From a virus, in IMG/VR virus record IMGVR_UViG_3300044629_000661, positions 1 to 51,931 of that record: DNA of 51,931 bases; one strand, 5' to 3'. The position numbers and the translations under genes were made by a program. How positions within the stretch are numbered: position 1 is the stretch's first letter; the number at the start of each line of letters is the position of its first letter. Under the pieces are notes generated by a model. It made no database searches and was not told where the DNA came from. It worked only from the letters and a program-made list of their open reading frames with translations. This document shows positions 31,656-51,931 of the stretch, in pieces.

Positions 31656-33791
31656 ATGGACGCAAACGTTTTAAATAACACAATCATCAACATAGACAAA
31701 CTGTTGATGATTCGGCAGTGCGCTGAAAACATACGGCGTCAAAATTTGATAGGCGCGTCCGCTGAATTGGGCGTATATCGCGGCGGTGTTTCTAAGCTAA
31801 TTGCTAACGAATTACCGAGCAGTGTGCATTATGTGTTTGACACCTTTGACGGATTAAAAGATTGTCAAGCCGGATTAGATACACATGCAAACGGCGACTT
31901 CAGCGACGTTAATTACACCAATGTTGAAATGCTGCTGAATAATTCAAACATTGTTTTTCGCGCGGGTTATTTTCCTGACACGGTTCAGGACATGCAAGAC
32001 ACGCAATACGTCTTAGTACATTTAGACGTAGACACATATAAATCAACATTAGCGGGCTTAGCGTACTTCTACCCGCGACTTGTACCTGGCGGGATTATGG
32101 CGATAGACGACTACACGTTTCATACATGTCCGGGAGTCGAAAAAGCTTGCAATGAGTATTTTTCTGATAAGCCAGACCAGCCGACAATGCTGGTCAACGG
32201 TCAAGCGCTAATTACAAAAAGCCCTAGTCAAACAAAATTTTTTCCTGTTTGGTTTGATCACGGTCTCGGCGATTGCGCGCATTTTACGCAAATTTTACAG
32301 CTGTATCGCCGGCGAAATTATCTTGTGGCTGTTCATTTTGAACACAACAAGCAAGATATTTGGCGCTCAGCCGGTTTTCCGTTTGCTGAATTGCACGGAT
32401 CGCCGTATCACCCTTTTATTTATGACGCCGACTTTAATCGCCCAAATGCAGAAGCTGATCACTCTGGCAATAAAACGGCCGCAAATTTGTTGCTATCACC
32501 GCTCCCGCCGCTTGACGAGCCAATCGACGCGTTATGGGACGAACTAGCGCGCGTAGATGAACGAAAACGTATTCGAGCACATCTTGGTACGCAATACTTT
32601 GAAGCAGTTGACCGCTGGTTAGCGGGCCTCCCCGGCCCAATAATTCTTCTGCATCCGCAGGGCACTAATTGGGCGGAACAAAAAAATCTACCCATTGAAA
32701 CTGTGCAAAAGCTATACCGGCTGTTGCTTGAAAACTCAGACGCCAGTCTGGTGCTTCTGGATTGGGATTGCCGCGTGCCAGAACCGCCCGCAAGTTGCCG
32801 CGTAAGGCATGTTAAACGAGATTTTGGGCACATCTCAACCGGCGAAATGCTTACATTAATGCAGCGCGCCGATTTACTAATTGGCGTGGATTCTGGCCCC
32901 ATGCATTCAGCATTGTTTACAGATATTCCTGTTTTAGGGGTACTGCATCATCTATATCCTTCGTGCATCACGTTGCCGAATCCGCGCGCGGCCTTTATGA
33001 CACGCAACTCACCGAGTTATAAACCAATTAATCAGTCGCGCCGCGGCCGGTGGTCTATTTTAGAGTACAGCGGCCAGCTACCGACTGCCGATGAAATTGC
33101 GCATCACGCGCTGCGCATGTTGCAGGGACCGCGTTATTTAACTAAAGACCGCATAGGTCGCGACGTGTTATTGCAACAACTTGTGCGGGACTGGTTGCGC
33201 TGCGCGCCGCCCGGCGTTGCGTACGCTGATCGCGATCGCACATTTGATTGGTTGTTTAAGGAAATGACAGCCAGATTTCCCGCGGCGAATGTGGTTGAAA
33301 CCGGCTGTCAACGTTCAAACGAAGACTGGACGGCCGGTTGTTCAACTTATTTGTTCGGGTGTTATTTAGACGGGATCAGCGCTGGTCGTCTTAATTCTGT
33401 AGACATATCAGCGCACAATCTCGCGACAGCCGCGCAGTGTTGTCAATCTTGGAATAACTGTATCACATACAATGTTTGCGACAGCGTAAAATGGTTGGAA
33501 GACTACCGCCAACAAATTGATGTGCTGTATTTAGACTCTCTAGACGCTGATCACGCGGAAACAGCGGCGCACGGCTTAAAAGAATTTCAAGCGGCGCTTC
33601 CAAAACTTCACGAGCGTTCAATAGTAGTGATTGACGATACAGTTTGGCGCGGCGATTACACTGCGCCGCAAAGTGGCAGTTATTCCGGCAAAGCGGCTGC
33701 AATTATGCCGGTTGCATTAGCAACCGGTTGGCGCGTCGCTCTATGTGGTTATCAAGTTGTGTTAATTCGTAGCCCGCAAGAACAGACATAA
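31656..33791 (+). CDS. Methyltransferase-glycosyltransferase-methyltransferase fusion
   Basis: Encodes 711 residues in three parts. About 1-190 are a TylF/macrocin-O-methyltransferase-like domain: GASAELGVYRGGVSKLIA, HYVFDTFDGL, LVHLDVDTYKSTLAGLAYF, GGIMAIDDYTF. About 195-460 resemble a GT9-type GT-B glycosyltransferase: FDHGLGDCAHFTQIL at the start, IILLHPQGTNWAEQKNLP, and LLIGVDSGPMHSALFTDIPV (donor site). About 510-711 form a second SAM-methyltransferase-like domain: NVVETGCQRS, LNSVDISAHNL, IDVLYLDSLDADH, SIVVIDDTVWRGDY. Such a polypeptide could elongate a glycan and cap it by methylation. Codons are more A/T-ending than in neighbours, suggesting separate acquisition. Confidence 0.82.
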   Translation: MDANVLNNTIINIDKLLMIRQCAENIRRQNLIGASAELGVYRGGVSKLIANELPSSVHYVFDTFDGLKDCQAGLDTHANGDFSDVNYTNVEMLLNNSNIVFRAGYFPDTVQDMQDTQYVLVHLDVDTYKSTLAGLAYFYPRLVPGGIMAIDDYTFHTCPGVEKACNEYFSDKPDQPTMLVNGQALITKSPSQTKFFPVWFDHGLGDCAHFTQILQLYRRRNYLVAVHFEHNKQDIWRSAGFPFAELHGSPYHPFIYDADFNRPNAEADHSGNKTAANLLLSPLPPLDEPIDALWDELARVDERKRIRAHLGTQYFEAVDRWLAGLPGPIILLHPQGTNWAEQKNLPIETVQKLYRLLLENSDASLVLLDWDCRVPEPPASCRVRHVKRDFGHISTGEMLTLMQRADLLIGVDSGPMHSALFTDIPVLGVLHHLYPSCITLPNPRAAFMTRNSPSYKPINQSRRGRWSILEYSGQLPTADEIAHHALRMLQGPRYLTKDRIGRDVLLQQLVRDWLRCAPPGVAYADRDRTFDWLFKEMTARFPAANVVETGCQRSNEDWTAGCSTYLFGCYLDGISAGRLNSVDISAHNLATAAQCCQSWNNCITYNVCDSVKWLEDYRQQIDVLYLDSLDADHAETAAHGLKEFQAALPKLHERSIVVIDDTVWRGDYTAPQSGSYSGKAAAIMPVALATGWRVALCGYQVVLIRSPQEQT

Positions 33792-47313: not shown

Positions 47314-50300
47314 ATGCCGGCGCCAAATCAATCAAACTCGATCCTCGGCGATCAGATGCGCGCTTTTGGCGACGTCGGGTCGCTGCGGCAAAACATCTTT
47401 GAGCAGTCGCAACAGTCTGTAGTCGACGTTGCGCCGTTTCAGCCGCGTTTCACCCGTAAGGGTATTTTTGACGCGGTTGAAACACAGGCCAGAGAGATAA
47501 AACCCGTACAAAATGATCTGTATACGCTTGCCGTAAATGACGTCAAGTATGAGGGGCCGGAGCGCTTCACTAAAAAAGATCACAAGAACGCTGTGTTGTC
47601 TCACGGCAGCCTTACGAGAAAGCTGCGCGGCACGTGGCAGCTCCTAGACAACAAGACCGGCGACGTAATCGCTAACCGCCGCGTCACCCTGGCGAACGTT
47701 CCTTATATGACCGACGCTGGCACATTCGTGCATAACGGCGTCGAATACACGCTCGCGCATCAGCTGCGGCTTCGCCCAGGCGTCTACACGCGCGAGAAAG
47801 ACAACGGCGAGCTGGAGGCGCATGTAAACGTGCTGCCCGGTAAAGGCCGAATGCATCGGTATTTTCTAGATCCTAAAACGGGTGTGTTCAAGATTAACAT
47901 AGGCCAGGCGAACATTCCGCTTATGCCGTTGTTAAAGGCTATTGGCGTACCTGAAAAGAGTATCCGCGATGCGTGGGGTGACGAACTATCGGCAATCAAC
48001 TTGGCTAAAGGCGACGCTGGCACACTGGACAAGATCTACAACAGACTTGTTTACAAACCAGTCGCCGGCCTAGACGCCGAAGGCAAGCAAAAAGCTATTG
48101 CCGAAGAATTCGCGCGTATGGAAATGGACCCTGAGGTCACCAAGCGCACGCTAGGCGAGGCGATTAAAAATCTTTCACCAGACGCGATGCTCAAAATTAC
48201 GAAAAAGCTGATTGCAGTAAATCGCAAAGAGGCCGAAACAGACGACCGCGATAGCATGGCGTTTCAACAAGTCCTCGGACCCGAAGATCTTATCGCTGAG
48301 CGCTTTACAAAAGATCGCGCAATGGTCCGGCAGCTTCTGTGGAAAGCAACGGCCAAGAAAACGCTCGACCACGTACCTACCGGGGCTTTTAACAAAGCAA
48401 TTACGGCGGCGCTTATTGGTAGCGGTCTCGGGTCTAGCTTAGAAGAGATCAACCCCGCCGAAATTTTCGACCATCAGACTCGCGTGACCCGTCTTGGCGA
48501 GGGCGGCATCGGCAGTCTGGACGCGGTGCCGGTTGAAAGCCGCAGTGTGCAGCCTAGTCACTTCGGATTTGTCGATTATTTGCGCACACCTGAATCTGGC
48601 AAGGTAGGTGTGGACATGCGCTTTGCCCGCGGAGCTTTCAAGGGCTCTGACGGCAAGATTTACACGCAGGTTAAAAACCTGAAAACCGGCAAGCTGGAAT
48701 ACAAGTCACCGCAAGACATCGCCGACATTCCGATCGTATTCCCGGGCGAGGATCAAAGCGATCTGCCGTCTGTTGCGGCTATTGTTAACGGCAAGATGAA
48801 ATACATTCCGCGCGATCAAGCGGAATACATGCTGCCAAACATGGATGCCTCATTCTCGACGCTCGGCAACATGGTACCGCTGAAATCAATGATGAAGGGC
48901 CACCGCGTCATCATGGGTTCGCGCATGTTTACGCAGGCGCTACCGCTTGTAAACGCCGAAGCCCCCTTTATTCAATCGGCTATGTCTGATGACCCCAGTA
49001 AGTCGTACGAAGACGATATGGGTCGCAATCTAGGCGCAATAACGGCTGACGATCACGCGCAGGTTGTGTCCGTTACGCCTGATGAGATAGTGCTGCGCGA
49101 CAAGAATGGCGATAAGCGCAGTATAGATCTATATAACGACGCGCCGTTTAACCGTAAAACATTCTGGACGCAAAAACCGCTTGTACAGCCGGGCGACACT
49201 GTAAAACCCGGTCAGCTGCTTGCTAGCTCTAATTTCACAGACAACAAGGGCACGGCGGCGCTTGGTTTGAACATGCGTGTTGGTTATTTGCCGTTTCGTG
49301 GCGCTGTGTATGACGACTCAATCGCGCTGTCTGAATCTGCCGCAAAGCGTCTCACGTCAGAGCATATGTATCAGCACGAAGCAGAATCTGACGACAGTAC
49401 GCATATCGACAAGAAGAAATTCATCAGTTTGTTTCCCGGTGAGTATGACAAAAAATTGCTTGACAACTTTGACGACACTGGTGTGATTAAAAAAGGTACG
49501 GTAGTCAATTACGGCGATCCGCTTATCCTCGTCAGCAAAGCTCGTGAAACAACTTACGGCCAGGTTTTCCGCGGCAAGTCAGCCAACTTCGCTAACGACT
49601 CTGTAGCGTGGGAGCATCACGCGCCCGGTGTTGTTACGGACGTCGCTAAGACAAAAAACGGGTATAGCGTTGTAGTTAAAAATCAGGCGCAAATGGAAGT
49701 TGGCGATAAGTTAACCGGCCGATTTGGCGACAAGGGCGTCGTGGCGCAGATCATACCTGACGACGAGATGCCACAAGATGCCCAAGGCCGCCCGTTGGAA
49801 GTTTTGGTGAGTCCGCTCGGATTAGCCAGCCGTATTAATCCGTCGCAGTTAGTTGAGGCTGCTCTGGGCAAAGTGGCTGAAAAGACCGGTAAGCCGTACA
49901 AAATAAAAGACTTCGACAGCGCGGTGGATTTGCTGCAATTCGCCAAAGATGAATTGCGTAAAAACCAGCTTAATGATTTAGACGACGTCGTAGACCCGGC
50001 GACGGGCCGCAAGATTCGCGGTGTGCTCACGGGCAACCGCTTCTTCATGAAGCTTCACCACACCAGCGAAAGCAAAGCACAGGGCCGGTCTACTGGCGGG
50101 TATACGGCCGAGGGCGCGCCGGCTAAGGGCGGTGTTGAGGGCGCCAAGCGTGTAGGCATGCTTGATCTCGGCGCGCTACTGTCGCACGGCGCTGGGCAGG
50201 TTATTCGTGACGCCAAAATGGTCCGCGGCCAGGCTAATCCTGAATACTGGTCGCAATTTATGGCGGGCTATTCTGCGCCGCTGCCAAAGATACCGCATGT

Positions 50301-51762
50301 TTACACAAAGTTTGTCGAGCAGCTGCGTGGTGCCGGTATCAACACAGTGCGCGAAGGCACAAAGACGCACATCATGGCGCTCACCGACAAAGACATCGAG
50401 CAGCTCGCTGGCGACCGTGAAATTAAAAACGCAGAAACCGTTGACTGGAAGGGCGGGCTGCGGCCTAAAAGCGGTGGCCTGTTTGACGAAACATTAACGG
50501 GCGGCCACAACGGCAATCGATGGTCGAAAATAACGCTGCATGAGCCGATGCCGAATCCTGTAATGGAAGAACCTATTCGGCGCACGCTCGGACTTACCGA
50601 AAAGAAATTCCGCGACGTGCTGGCTGGCCGCGAGAAGATAAATGACGAAACGGGCCCGACGGCAATAAAAAACGCGTTAAGCCGCATAAACGTCCCGAAA
50701 GCCATCGAGCAGGCGCGGCAAGACATTCAGTCTGGCCGCAAGACGCTCCGCGATGCGGCAGTACGTCGTCTGGCGTTTTTAAAGGCGTCAGAAAAAACGG
50801 GTGTGCATCCTGAAAACTGGATGCTCAGCAAAATGCCGGTTATTCCGCCGGCATTTCGCCCTGTATCTACGATGGGTCAAAAGAAATTACCGCTCGTTGC
50901 AGACGCTAATTATCTATACAAAGAACTACTCGACGCTAATGGCGCGTTAAAAGAATCGCACGGCGTATTGGACGACGTCGGCGACGAGCGACTTGGGTTA
51001 TATGACGCGATGAAGGGTGTTACCGGCCTTGGCGACCCGGTTCAGTCTAAAAACGTAGAGCGCCGTGTTCGTGGGTTTCTGTCGCAGGTTTTCGGCAGTT
51101 CGCCCAAGTACGGTACGGTTCAGCGCAAGCTACTGAGCTCGACTGTTGACCTCGTCGGCCGGGCTGTTATTACGCCGAACGCCGATCTGGATATGGATCA
51201 TGTGGCGCTCCCGGAAGAAAAAGCTTGGGAGATCTACAAGCCGTTTATCGTGCGCGGTCTTGTGCGCCGTGGTTTGCCGCGTATGGAGGCTATTAAAGCT
51301 TTTGACGGCAAAAACAACTCGGCGCGTTCTGAGTTAATGACGCAAATGAATTCGCGGCCGATCATTATTAATCGTGCGCCTGTTCTTCACCGGTACGGCA
51401 TGATGGCGTTTTATCCGCGGCTCACAAAGAACAAAACAATGGAAGTTAGTCCGCTTGTAACAAAAGGTTTCAACGCTGACTTTGACGGCGACGCGATGCA
51501 ATTTCACGTGCCCAGCACAGATTCAGCGGCTAAAGAAGCTGTTGAAAAAATGCTACCAAGTCGCAATCTTTTCGCCGCCGCGTCGTTTAAGGCACATTTC
51601 ACACCAGTGGCGGAATTACACTCCGGTCTTTACACTGCTTCTAACCGGATTAACAAGAAAACACCTACACGCGTGTACAAAACGACCCAAGATGCCATAT
51701 CGGCGTATAGGCGAGGCGAAATAGAGGTCGACACGCCGGTGCATATTATGGAAAATGATTAG
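47314..51762 (+). CDS. RNA polymerase beta / N-terminal beta-prime fusion
   Basis: Encodes 1482 residues. Beta part: VPYMTDAGTFVHNGVEYTLA (about 130), RLGEGGIGSLDAVPVESRSV and SHFGFVDYLRTPESGKVGV (about 392-430), GDKLTGRFGDKGVVAQI (797-813), and LHHTSESKAQGRSTGGYTAE (914-933). Beta-prime part: GGLFDETLTGGHNG with no zinc-finger Cys, VIPPAFRPV (1176), STVDLVGRAVI, RAPVLHRYGMMAFYPRL (1354), and catalytic NADFDGD at 1387-1393 with all three Asp. The protein stops about 90 residues later; the bridge helix and trigger loop of beta-prime are absent and must lie elsewhere if active. No promoter is apparent in the 12-bp gap. Confidence 0.93.
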   Translation: MPAPNQSNSILGDQMRAFGDVGSLRQNIFEQSQQSVVDVAPFQPRFTRKGIFDAVETQAREIKPVQNDLYTLAVNDVKYEGPERFTKKDHKNAVLSHGSLTRKLRGTWQLLDNKTGDVIANRRVTLANVPYMTDAGTFVHNGVEYTLAHQLRLRPGVYTREKDNGELEAHVNVLPGKGRMHRYFLDPKTGVFKINIGQANIPLMPLLKAIGVPEKSIRDAWGDELSAINLAKGDAGTLDKIYNRLVYKPVAGLDAEGKQKAIAEEFARMEMDPEVTKRTLGEAIKNLSPDAMLKITKKLIAVNRKEAETDDRDSMAFQQVLGPEDLIAERFTKDRAMVRQLLWKATAKKTLDHVPTGAFNKAITAALIGSGLGSSLEEINPAEIFDHQTRVTRLGEGGIGSLDAVPVESRSVQPSHFGFVDYLRTPESGKVGVDMRFARGAFKGSDGKIYTQVKNLKTGKLEYKSPQDIADIPIVFPGEDQSDLPSVAAIVNGKMKYIPRDQAEYMLPNMDASFSTLGNMVPLKSMMKGHRVIMGSRMFTQALPLVNAEAPFIQSAMSDDPSKSYEDDMGRNLGAITADDHAQVVSVTPDEIVLRDKNGDKRSIDLYNDAPFNRKTFWTQKPLVQPGDTVKPGQLLASSNFTDNKGTAALGLNMRVGYLPFRGAVYDDSIALSESAAKRLTSEHMYQHEAESDDSTHIDKKKFISLFPGEYDKKLLDNFDDTGVIKKGTVVNYGDPLILVSKARETTYGQVFRGKSANFANDSVAWEHHAPGVVTDVAKTKNGYSVVVKNQAQMEVGDKLTGRFGDKGVVAQIIPDDEMPQDAQGRPLEVLVSPLGLASRINPSQLVEAALGKVAEKTGKPYKIKDFDSAVDLLQFAKDELRKNQLNDLDDVVDPATGRKIRGVLTGNRFFMKLHHTSESKAQGRSTGGYTAEGAPAKGGVEGAKRVGMLDLGALLSHGAGQVIRDAKMVRGQANPEYWSQFMAGYSAPLPKIPHVYTKFVEQLRGAGINTVREGTKTHIMALTDKDIEQLAGDREIKNAETVDWKGGLRPKSGGLFDETLTGGHNGNRWSKITLHEPMPNPVMEEPIRRTLGLTEKKFRDVLAGREKINDETGPTAIKNALSRINVPKAIEQARQDIQSGRKTLRDAAVRRLAFLKASEKTGVHPENWMLSKMPVIPPAFRPVSTMGQKKLPLVADANYLYKELLDANGALKESHGVLDDVGDERLGLYDAMKGVTGLGDPVQSKNVERRVRGFLSQVFGSSPKYGTVQRKLLSSTVDLVGRAVITPNADLDMDHVALPEEKAWEIYKPFIVRGLVRRGLPRMEAIKAFDGKNNSARSELMTQMNSRPIIINRAPVLHRYGMMAFYPRLTKNKTMEVSPLVTKGFNADFDGDAMQFHVPSTDSAAKEAVEKMLPSRNLFAAASFKAHFTPVAELHSGLYTASNRINKKTPTRVYKTTQDAISAYRRGEIEVDTPVHIMEND

Positions 51763-51785: not shown

Positions 51786-51931
51786 ATGGCTATTGTTAAT
51801 TCTGAGCTGCTGCGGCTGGCCCGCACGCGTTTTAATAAATCCGCTGCGGTTGTTCCCGGTGCTGGCGCGCCCCCTGCTGACCCGAGCATGGCCGGTGCCG
51901 CTCCTCCCGCCCCGCCCGTTGATCCCGCCGC
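51786..51931 (+). CDS. Pro/Ala-rich virion-like protein, 5' part only
   Basis: The ATG at 51786 follows AACAAGGAGA. The 48 visible residues begin MAIVNSELLRLARTRFNKSA, a basic amphipathic start, and then become Pro/Ala-rich, like the modular proteins at 767, 10204 and 27267. The gene runs off the right edge. It does not resemble a beta-prime C-terminal half in the visible part. Confidence 0.6.
   Translation, partial: MAIVNSELLRLARTRFNKSAAVVPGAGAPPADPSMAGAAPPAPPVDPA

Follow-up and report, generated by a model that had tools for sequence, protein, structure and literature searches.

The window analysed here, the whole linear IMG/VR virus record IMGVR_UViG_3300044629_000661 (51,931 bases), carries at its 3′ end a single open reading frame (ORF; 47314-51762) that begins with ATG at 47314, ends with TAG at 51760-51762 and encodes 1482 aa. 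This gene encodes a bacterial-type RNA polymerase (RNAP) β subunit fused to β′ ~1-567. We consider it very likely that its product is the large chain of a two-chain, phage-borne RNAP, the second chain of which (β′C) holds the remainder of β′. Residue numbers of β and β′ features are those of E. coli unless stated otherwise, and surveyed loci are given as Lnnn. The features of the locus are as follows.

47314..51762, + strand: RNAP β/β′N fusion gene, 1482 aa (ORF, Pfam, NCBIfam)
47314..50361, + strand: β-homologous part, chain residues ~1-1016, with the β double-psi β-barrel (DPBB), flap and fork loop
49708..49734, + strand: catalytic lysines of the β DPBB, chain residues 799 and 807, equivalent to E. 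coli β K1065 and K1073
50362..51759, + strand: β′-homologous part, chain residues ~1017-1482, equivalent to E. coli β′ ~1-567
50490..50535, + strand, approximate boundaries: site of the deleted β′ N-terminal zinc finger (E. coli C70-C88), GGLFDETLTGGHNGNRW
50902..51030, + strand: β′ clamp helices, chain residues ~1197-1239 (by alignment; the AlphaFold2 model has two helices there)
51472..51492, + strand: NADFDGD Mg-binding motif, chain residues 1387-1393 (by sequence)
51786..51931, + strand: start of the next gene, MAIVNSELLRLARTRFNKSAA..., truncated by the contig end

The β part was recognised by the Pfam domains Rpb2_2, Rpb2_3 and Rpb2_6 (the last at 8e-49), by PDB β chains with E-values down to 3e-70 and by alignment to RpoB. 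Moreover, an AlphaFold2 model of a fragment of the large chain matched β chains with Z-scores of 25-32, and both DPBB lysines (K1065, K1073) are kept throughout the aligned phage chains. The β′ part was recognised by Rpb1_2 (8e-25) and part of Rpb1_1, by TIGR02386 (143-534) and by PDB β′ chains (E ~1e-45). The order of NCBIfam matches along the chain is rpoB followed by rpoC, the latter over positions 143-534 of 1147. β passes into β′ near chain residue 1016 with hardly any linker (β ...LRGAGINTVREG..., then β′ ...LTDKDIEQLAGDREIKNAETVDWKGGLRPKSGGLFDE...), and the last residue aligns with E. coli β′ 567. Pfam, NCBIfam and the E. coli alignment agree with the initial annotation that one polypeptide joins β to an N-terminal part of β′. 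The part is larger than the third given there, amounting to ~40% of β′. Retention of NADFDGD and loss of the β′ zinc finger, both claimed earlier, were also borne out: cysteines C70, C72, C85 and C88 lie within a deletion, and a short turn stands in their place in the alignment to E. coli. The chain had further been said to stop right after the active-site region, before bridge helix and trigger loop. Both elements are lacking, and the Pfam search matched none of Rpb1_3, Rpb1_4 and Rpb1_5 on the 1482-aa chain, but the chain extends ~89 residues beyond NADFDGD.

The record ends 169 bases past the gene and thus the missing half of β′ is not visible within the window. The profile search for a complementary fragment, as the initial annotation had proposed, recovered it in relatives. 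We found 52 related loci in IMG/VR, and the large chain stops at the same place in all those that reach its 3′ end, some chains being longer solely through in-frame inserts. A β′C gene, whole or partial, lies downstream in 48/52; the four remaining contigs stop short of it. The remainder of β′ is therefore separately encoded, as had been predicted, in 48/48 relatives whose contigs are long enough and, judging by synteny, probably also in the phage of the window. Spacing between the two chains is mostly 0.83-0.98 kb in the window's clade, with outliers at 1.7 and 3.8-4.8 kb, and in relative L002 two small genes sit between them. The window gene starting at 51786 is immediately preceded by a Shine-Dalgarno-like AAGGAG, and its N-terminus resembles the first of these two small genes (L002 14473-15183). 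From this synteny we infer that β′C of the window's own phage lies ~1 kb downstream, just off the contig.

β′C is ~626 aa in length and encodes β′ from residue 568 onward, including bridge helix and trigger loop. Pfam Rpb1_5 matches it (2e-21), with one gene in each of 16/16 large contigs or genomes of 154-205 kb. On the rpoC profile, chain 1 covers 143-534 and chain 2 covers 548-1048; on E. coli β′, chain 1 ends at 567 and chain 2 begins at 568; and on the bacterial chain 8i23_D, chain 1 runs up to 562 and chain 2 from 577. Hence the two chains together tile one β′. The AlphaFold2 model of β′C, with a mean predicted local distance difference test score (pLDDT) of 78, has a 35-residue helix (182-216) at the bridge-helix position and helices 319-340 and 344-361 at the trigger loop. 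Its structural matches include cyanobacterial RpoC2 (Z 30.9) and residues 569-1375 of E. coli β′ (Z 28.9), and it aligns over its full length with the C-terminal half of β′ (Z 28-32, root-mean-square deviation about 7 Å over ~550 residues). Residues D460/D462/D464, K1065, K1073, R425, R678, R1106 and trigger-loop H936 are conserved. The Asp triad of the β′ DPBB and the lysine pair of the β DPBB place the enzyme in the superfamily of two-DPBB (cell-type) DNA-dependent RNA polymerases, as do the bridge helix and trigger loop seen in β′C of the relatives. The Asn of NADFDGD (N458), a ribose-contacting residue, is kept in the window; many relatives have Ala, Ser or Gly in its place and retain all three Asp (AADYDGD in L053, L054 and L065-L090; GADFDGD in L002, L003, L028 and L038). 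The second bacterial zinc site, located in β′C, has lost all four cysteines in the window's clade and keeps them in the clade of phage Arash.

With the contig end so close behind the gene, and with one-chain β-β′ versions known in relatives, the large chain might be a normal β-β′ or rpoC gene cut by frameshift or misassembly, or an RNAP in the course of being lost. We give almost no credence to this. The identical C-terminus recurs across dozens of assemblies made independently, and also in isolates of the two-chain type, so the sequencing frameshift that the initial annotation named as a possible refutation does not account for it; other genes lie between the halves, and the downstream β′C is conserved with its own start codon. 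Catalytic residues are kept. Moreover, the ratio of nonsynonymous to synonymous substitution rates (dN/dS) over the last 100 codons, measured with three relatives whose dS is unsaturated, is about 0.04-0.08, which denotes strong purifying selection; at the start of β′C it is about 0.08-0.10. The same arrangement bears on the idea that a split intein, trans-splicing or frameshifting unites the two halves once they are expressed, giving a mature enzyme of one chain. The seam lies between β′ 567 (end of chain 1) and 568 (start of chain 2), neither terminus carries intein halves and other genes separate the two; re-joining is highly improbable, even though inteins and group I introns interrupt several of the RNAP genes and one-chain relatives exist.

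A single PF00562 (β) gene was present per genome in 20 genomes, and a single PF04998 (β′C) gene per genome in 16 genomes, which together indicate one RNAP per phage. Searches for alpha (PF01193) and omega (PF01192) gave matches in 0/16 genomes with positive controls, although remote homologues could be missed. Host subunits could thus be borrowed, and the large chain might form no RNAP of its own, instead combining with, or poisoning, the subunits of the host RNAP. This is distinctly unlikely given that the phages encode a complete β and the equivalent of a complete β′, and that β′C accompanies the fused chain in every adequate contig.

A sigma70-like protein of ~280 aa has a homologue in 25/25 one- and two-chain genomes tested. 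In the window's clade Sigma70_r3 is matched above cut-off (2e-8 to 5e-10), region 4 falls below cut-off, region 2 is unmatched by Pfam and a weak TIGR02393 match spans residues 94-271. A Pfam search with sigma region 2 missed the sigma of the freshwater lineage, which was recovered by region 4 and then by protein search. Arash, D69 and D181 additionally have a region 2 protein. The β′ clamp helices are the usual docking site of sigma region 2, and both flap and clamp helices are retained in the large chain. We infer that one of the sigma-like proteins serves the phage RNAP. Retention of these docking sites and the co-occurrence with a phage RNAP in 25/25 genomes weigh against a reading in which the two-chain RNAP holds but the ~280-aa protein reprogrammes host RNAP, with phage promoters being found otherwise, as with phiKZ gp68. 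That reading is a genuine possibility which we lean against: region 3 is the sole sigma domain above cut-off in the window's clade, regions 2 and 4 being weak, and jumbo phages that lack an RNAP do use sigma factors on the host enzyme (PMC7598289).

The domain survey returned 57 loci with β+β′N followed by a separate β′C, at least six three-chain loci and 10 loci in which one chain holds the β, β′N and β′C domains; some of the one-chain ORFs are cut by contig ends and several are enlarged by inteins. Where complete, the one-chain ORFs measure about 2150-3012 aa (L092, L094, L098, L100-L102, L139, L140, L142 and L167). No isolate with the one-chain layout was among the best matches in the phage collection. 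The three-chain relatives (L076-L091) were considered as an unfused ancestor and rejected: their break lies at window residue ~1112, equivalent to β′ ~179 inside the β′ clamp, and so the β-β′ fusion is still present in those phages. In a quick tree built on β plus β′N, the two- and three-chain sequences formed one group, to which six one-chain sequences were sister, with Shimodaira-Hasegawa-like approximate likelihood-ratio test (SH-aLRT) values of 85 for that group and 100 for all 29 sequences; the one-chain L092 fell outside. This suggests one fusion, followed by a cut after the DPBB and by a second cut in one sublineage, a polarity that we call probable given the quick tree and its long branches.

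Several of these genes are interrupted. Rfam identified group I introns (RF00028) in the large-chain genes of D181 (E 1e-26), where an HNH homing endonuclease follows the intron, and of L075 (E 1e-28). The coordinates of these group I introns are as follows.

L059:7431-7711, group I intron within the large-chain gene
L075:11536-11817, group I intron within the large-chain gene

An in-frame LAGLIDADG intein interrupts the trigger loop of β′C in L019:15320-18379, between AAQAL and SEPVTQ. Five loci, L032, L035, L036, L037 and L047 (9974-15418), share the place of an in-frame insert of about 330 aa in the β fork-loop region; that of L032 is intein-like, beginning with Cys and ending with Asn before Ser, with a weak LAGLIDADG match. 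In the one-chain L167 an intein follows soon after NADFDGD; the site at which two-chain relatives are cut lies roughly 70 residues further on. Mobile elements have been proposed to explain cuts in jumbo-phage RNAPs (PMC7598289), and an intron endonuclease within a phage RNAP gene acts in inter-phage competition (PMC11620839). We conjecture that introns or inteins may explain the chain cuts in this lineage as well. An Rfam search between the split genes of L077 found no intron, a different ORF occupying the gap. Genes inserted between the three-chain pieces at L077:13339-15243 and L079:4678-5340 share the N-terminal sequence M(M)NK(Y/F)LEKIA and have a J-domain-like C-terminal end (HPDRGG); the leader repeated in both may be a virion-protein signal.

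The closest counterparts among named phages are Arash (OQ632216; gp206 + gp216) and Vibrio phages D69, D181 and D148, which carry both chains in the same β+β′N and β′C layout, with a large chain ~32% identical to that of the window. Like the window's clade, they have a single RNAP, a sigma-like gene and no alpha or omega found; they differ in having AADYDGD instead of NADFDGD and in keeping the second zinc site. Their RNAP is annotated merely as 'RNA polymerase subunit beta' or as hypothetical. In the papers accessible to us we found nothing on Arash, the D69 group or a β+β′N fusion.

The comparison with phiKZ suggested in the initial annotation is apt for the split of β′, and does not extend to the fusion of β with β′N. 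In phiKZ-type phages both the virion and the non-virion RNAP have β′ split after the catalytic DPBB, at the site used in cyanobacteria (PMC7598289). Enzymes of the phiKZ/AR9 type share this split, and the lack of alpha and omega, with the window's lineage, but their β is also split, giving 4-5 core chains, whereas here β is whole and fused to β′N; they come as two enzymes per genome without a recognisable sigma homologue, whereas here there is one enzyme and a sigma70-like gene. In cyanobacterial and plastid RpoC1 (gamma) and RpoC2, β′ is likewise cut between NADFDGD and the bridge helix, and residue 23 of phage β′C aligns with residue 5 of cyanobacterial RpoC2. However, RpoC1 is unfused to β, runs roughly 65 residues further and belongs to a cellular enzyme with alpha and omega. 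The earlier statement that in bacterial and archaeal enzymes NADFDGD, bridge helix and trigger loop all share one chain is contradicted by this rpoC1/rpoC2 split, which falls shortly after the same domain. In Archaea, the A′/A″ division separates the trigger loop from NADFDGD.

RpoB-RpoC fusions of the Helicobacter type (NCBIfam PRK09603, PRK14844) join the C-terminus of β to the N-terminus of β′, as the window gene does, but carry the whole of β′ and so resemble the one-chain phage relatives rather than the window gene. The crAss-like gp66 and YonO also have both DPBBs on one polypeptide; they are complete single-chain enzymes too diverged for cellular profiles, whereas the window chain aligns readily with bacterial RpoB and RpoC and needs a second chain. 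The mReC phages were defined by β and β′ matches of at least 800 aa each, with NADxDGD, and have a PF07068 capsid (Weinheimer and Aylward 2020; PMC7481178). Like the window's lineage, they are large tailed phages of metagenomic origin with a cell-like RNAP. On length, the 1482-aa fused chain might formally match both models, whereas β′C is ~626 aa. The PF07068 capsid was found in 0/13 genomes of the window's clade vs 6/7 genomes of a group with reversed gene order (β′ then β), and our quick tree, drawn without the mReC paper's own sequences, places the window's clade apart from this group. The reversed-order group probably represents the mReC phages. Its loci (L093-L171) have β′ (~900 aa) before β (~1000 aa) and the PF07068 capsid on large phage contigs, which often hold, in addition, a diverged second set (about 1005 + 1354 aa), e.g. 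L118 + L149; some of these phages probably have two RNAPs. Two further candidates for mReC with separate β and β′, L055 ('Staphylococcus phage SA 1306 Kay') and L056 ('Bacteriophage sp.'), were rejected. In the tree both fall next to E. coli with short branch lengths, and L055 retains all canonical residues; they are therefore probably bacterial contigs deposited as phage.

Given its whole β, single RNAP and sigma-like gene, the window's lineage is not phiKZ-type, nor, by the capsid marker, is it mReC. The cut in β′ is known from phiKZ-type phages and cyanobacteria and the β-β′ join from Helicobacter-type fusions; their combination was not found in searchable papers.

Our preferred reading is a two-chain enzyme. 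Chain 1, with β and the first 40% of β′, would bring both DPBBs, the Mg-binding NADFDGD and the β lysines, and chain 2 would supply bridge helix, trigger loop, C-terminal clamp and jaw, the two assembling non-covalently into one active enzyme. Holding the enzyme together, elsewhere the role of alpha and omega (apparently absent here), would probably fall to the covalent β-β′ link, and guiding it to phage promoters would probably fall to the divergent sigma70-like protein, acting through flap and clamp helices. Its most likely origin would be a one-chain β-β′ fusion cut after the DPBB, with a sister lineage cut again inside the β′ clamp. Several points weigh against this picture. β′C is absent from the window's own linear 51.9-kb record, which ends early; AlphaFold2 modelled the large chain poorly (pLDDT 66, predicted template modelling score 0.47), and the β′ part of that model was unranked in the fold search. 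In β′C, trigger-loop M932 is replaced by I/L and R933 by S/G, and catalysis may therefore be altered. The sigma-like protein may instead serve host RNAP, and the fusion-first polarity hangs on one quick tree with an SH-aLRT of 85 at the key fork. The wider proposal, that these enzymes form a major lineage of multisubunit phage RNAP, as yet undescribed and apart from the phiKZ-type and mReC enzymes, in which fusion replaces alpha and omega, the phage provides its own sigma70, one-, two- and three-chain forms arose by fusion and then fission, and introns or inteins may drive the cuts, is one on which we are evenly divided.

Elsewhere in the window, 31656-33791 encodes a 711-aa protein with a methyltransferase-like N-terminus, whose C-terminal 500 aa match phrog_24975, of unknown function (1e-162).

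In summary, this family of large aquatic phages offers a natural experiment in the rewiring of the most conserved multi-subunit enzyme, which recognisable relatives carry as one, two or three chains. The RNAP is apparently without alpha and omega and, in the window's clade, is without either β′ zinc site. With two genes for the RNAP and a sigma-like partner, this could be a simple system in which to test how the enzyme assembles and how promoters are recognised. Moreover, a further phage lineage cut just after the β′ DPBB bears on whether this site reflects common descent, for which a cyanobacterial origin has been put forward (PMC7598289), or a hinge that tolerates cutting; in this lineage, the one-chain relatives point rather to an independent cut.

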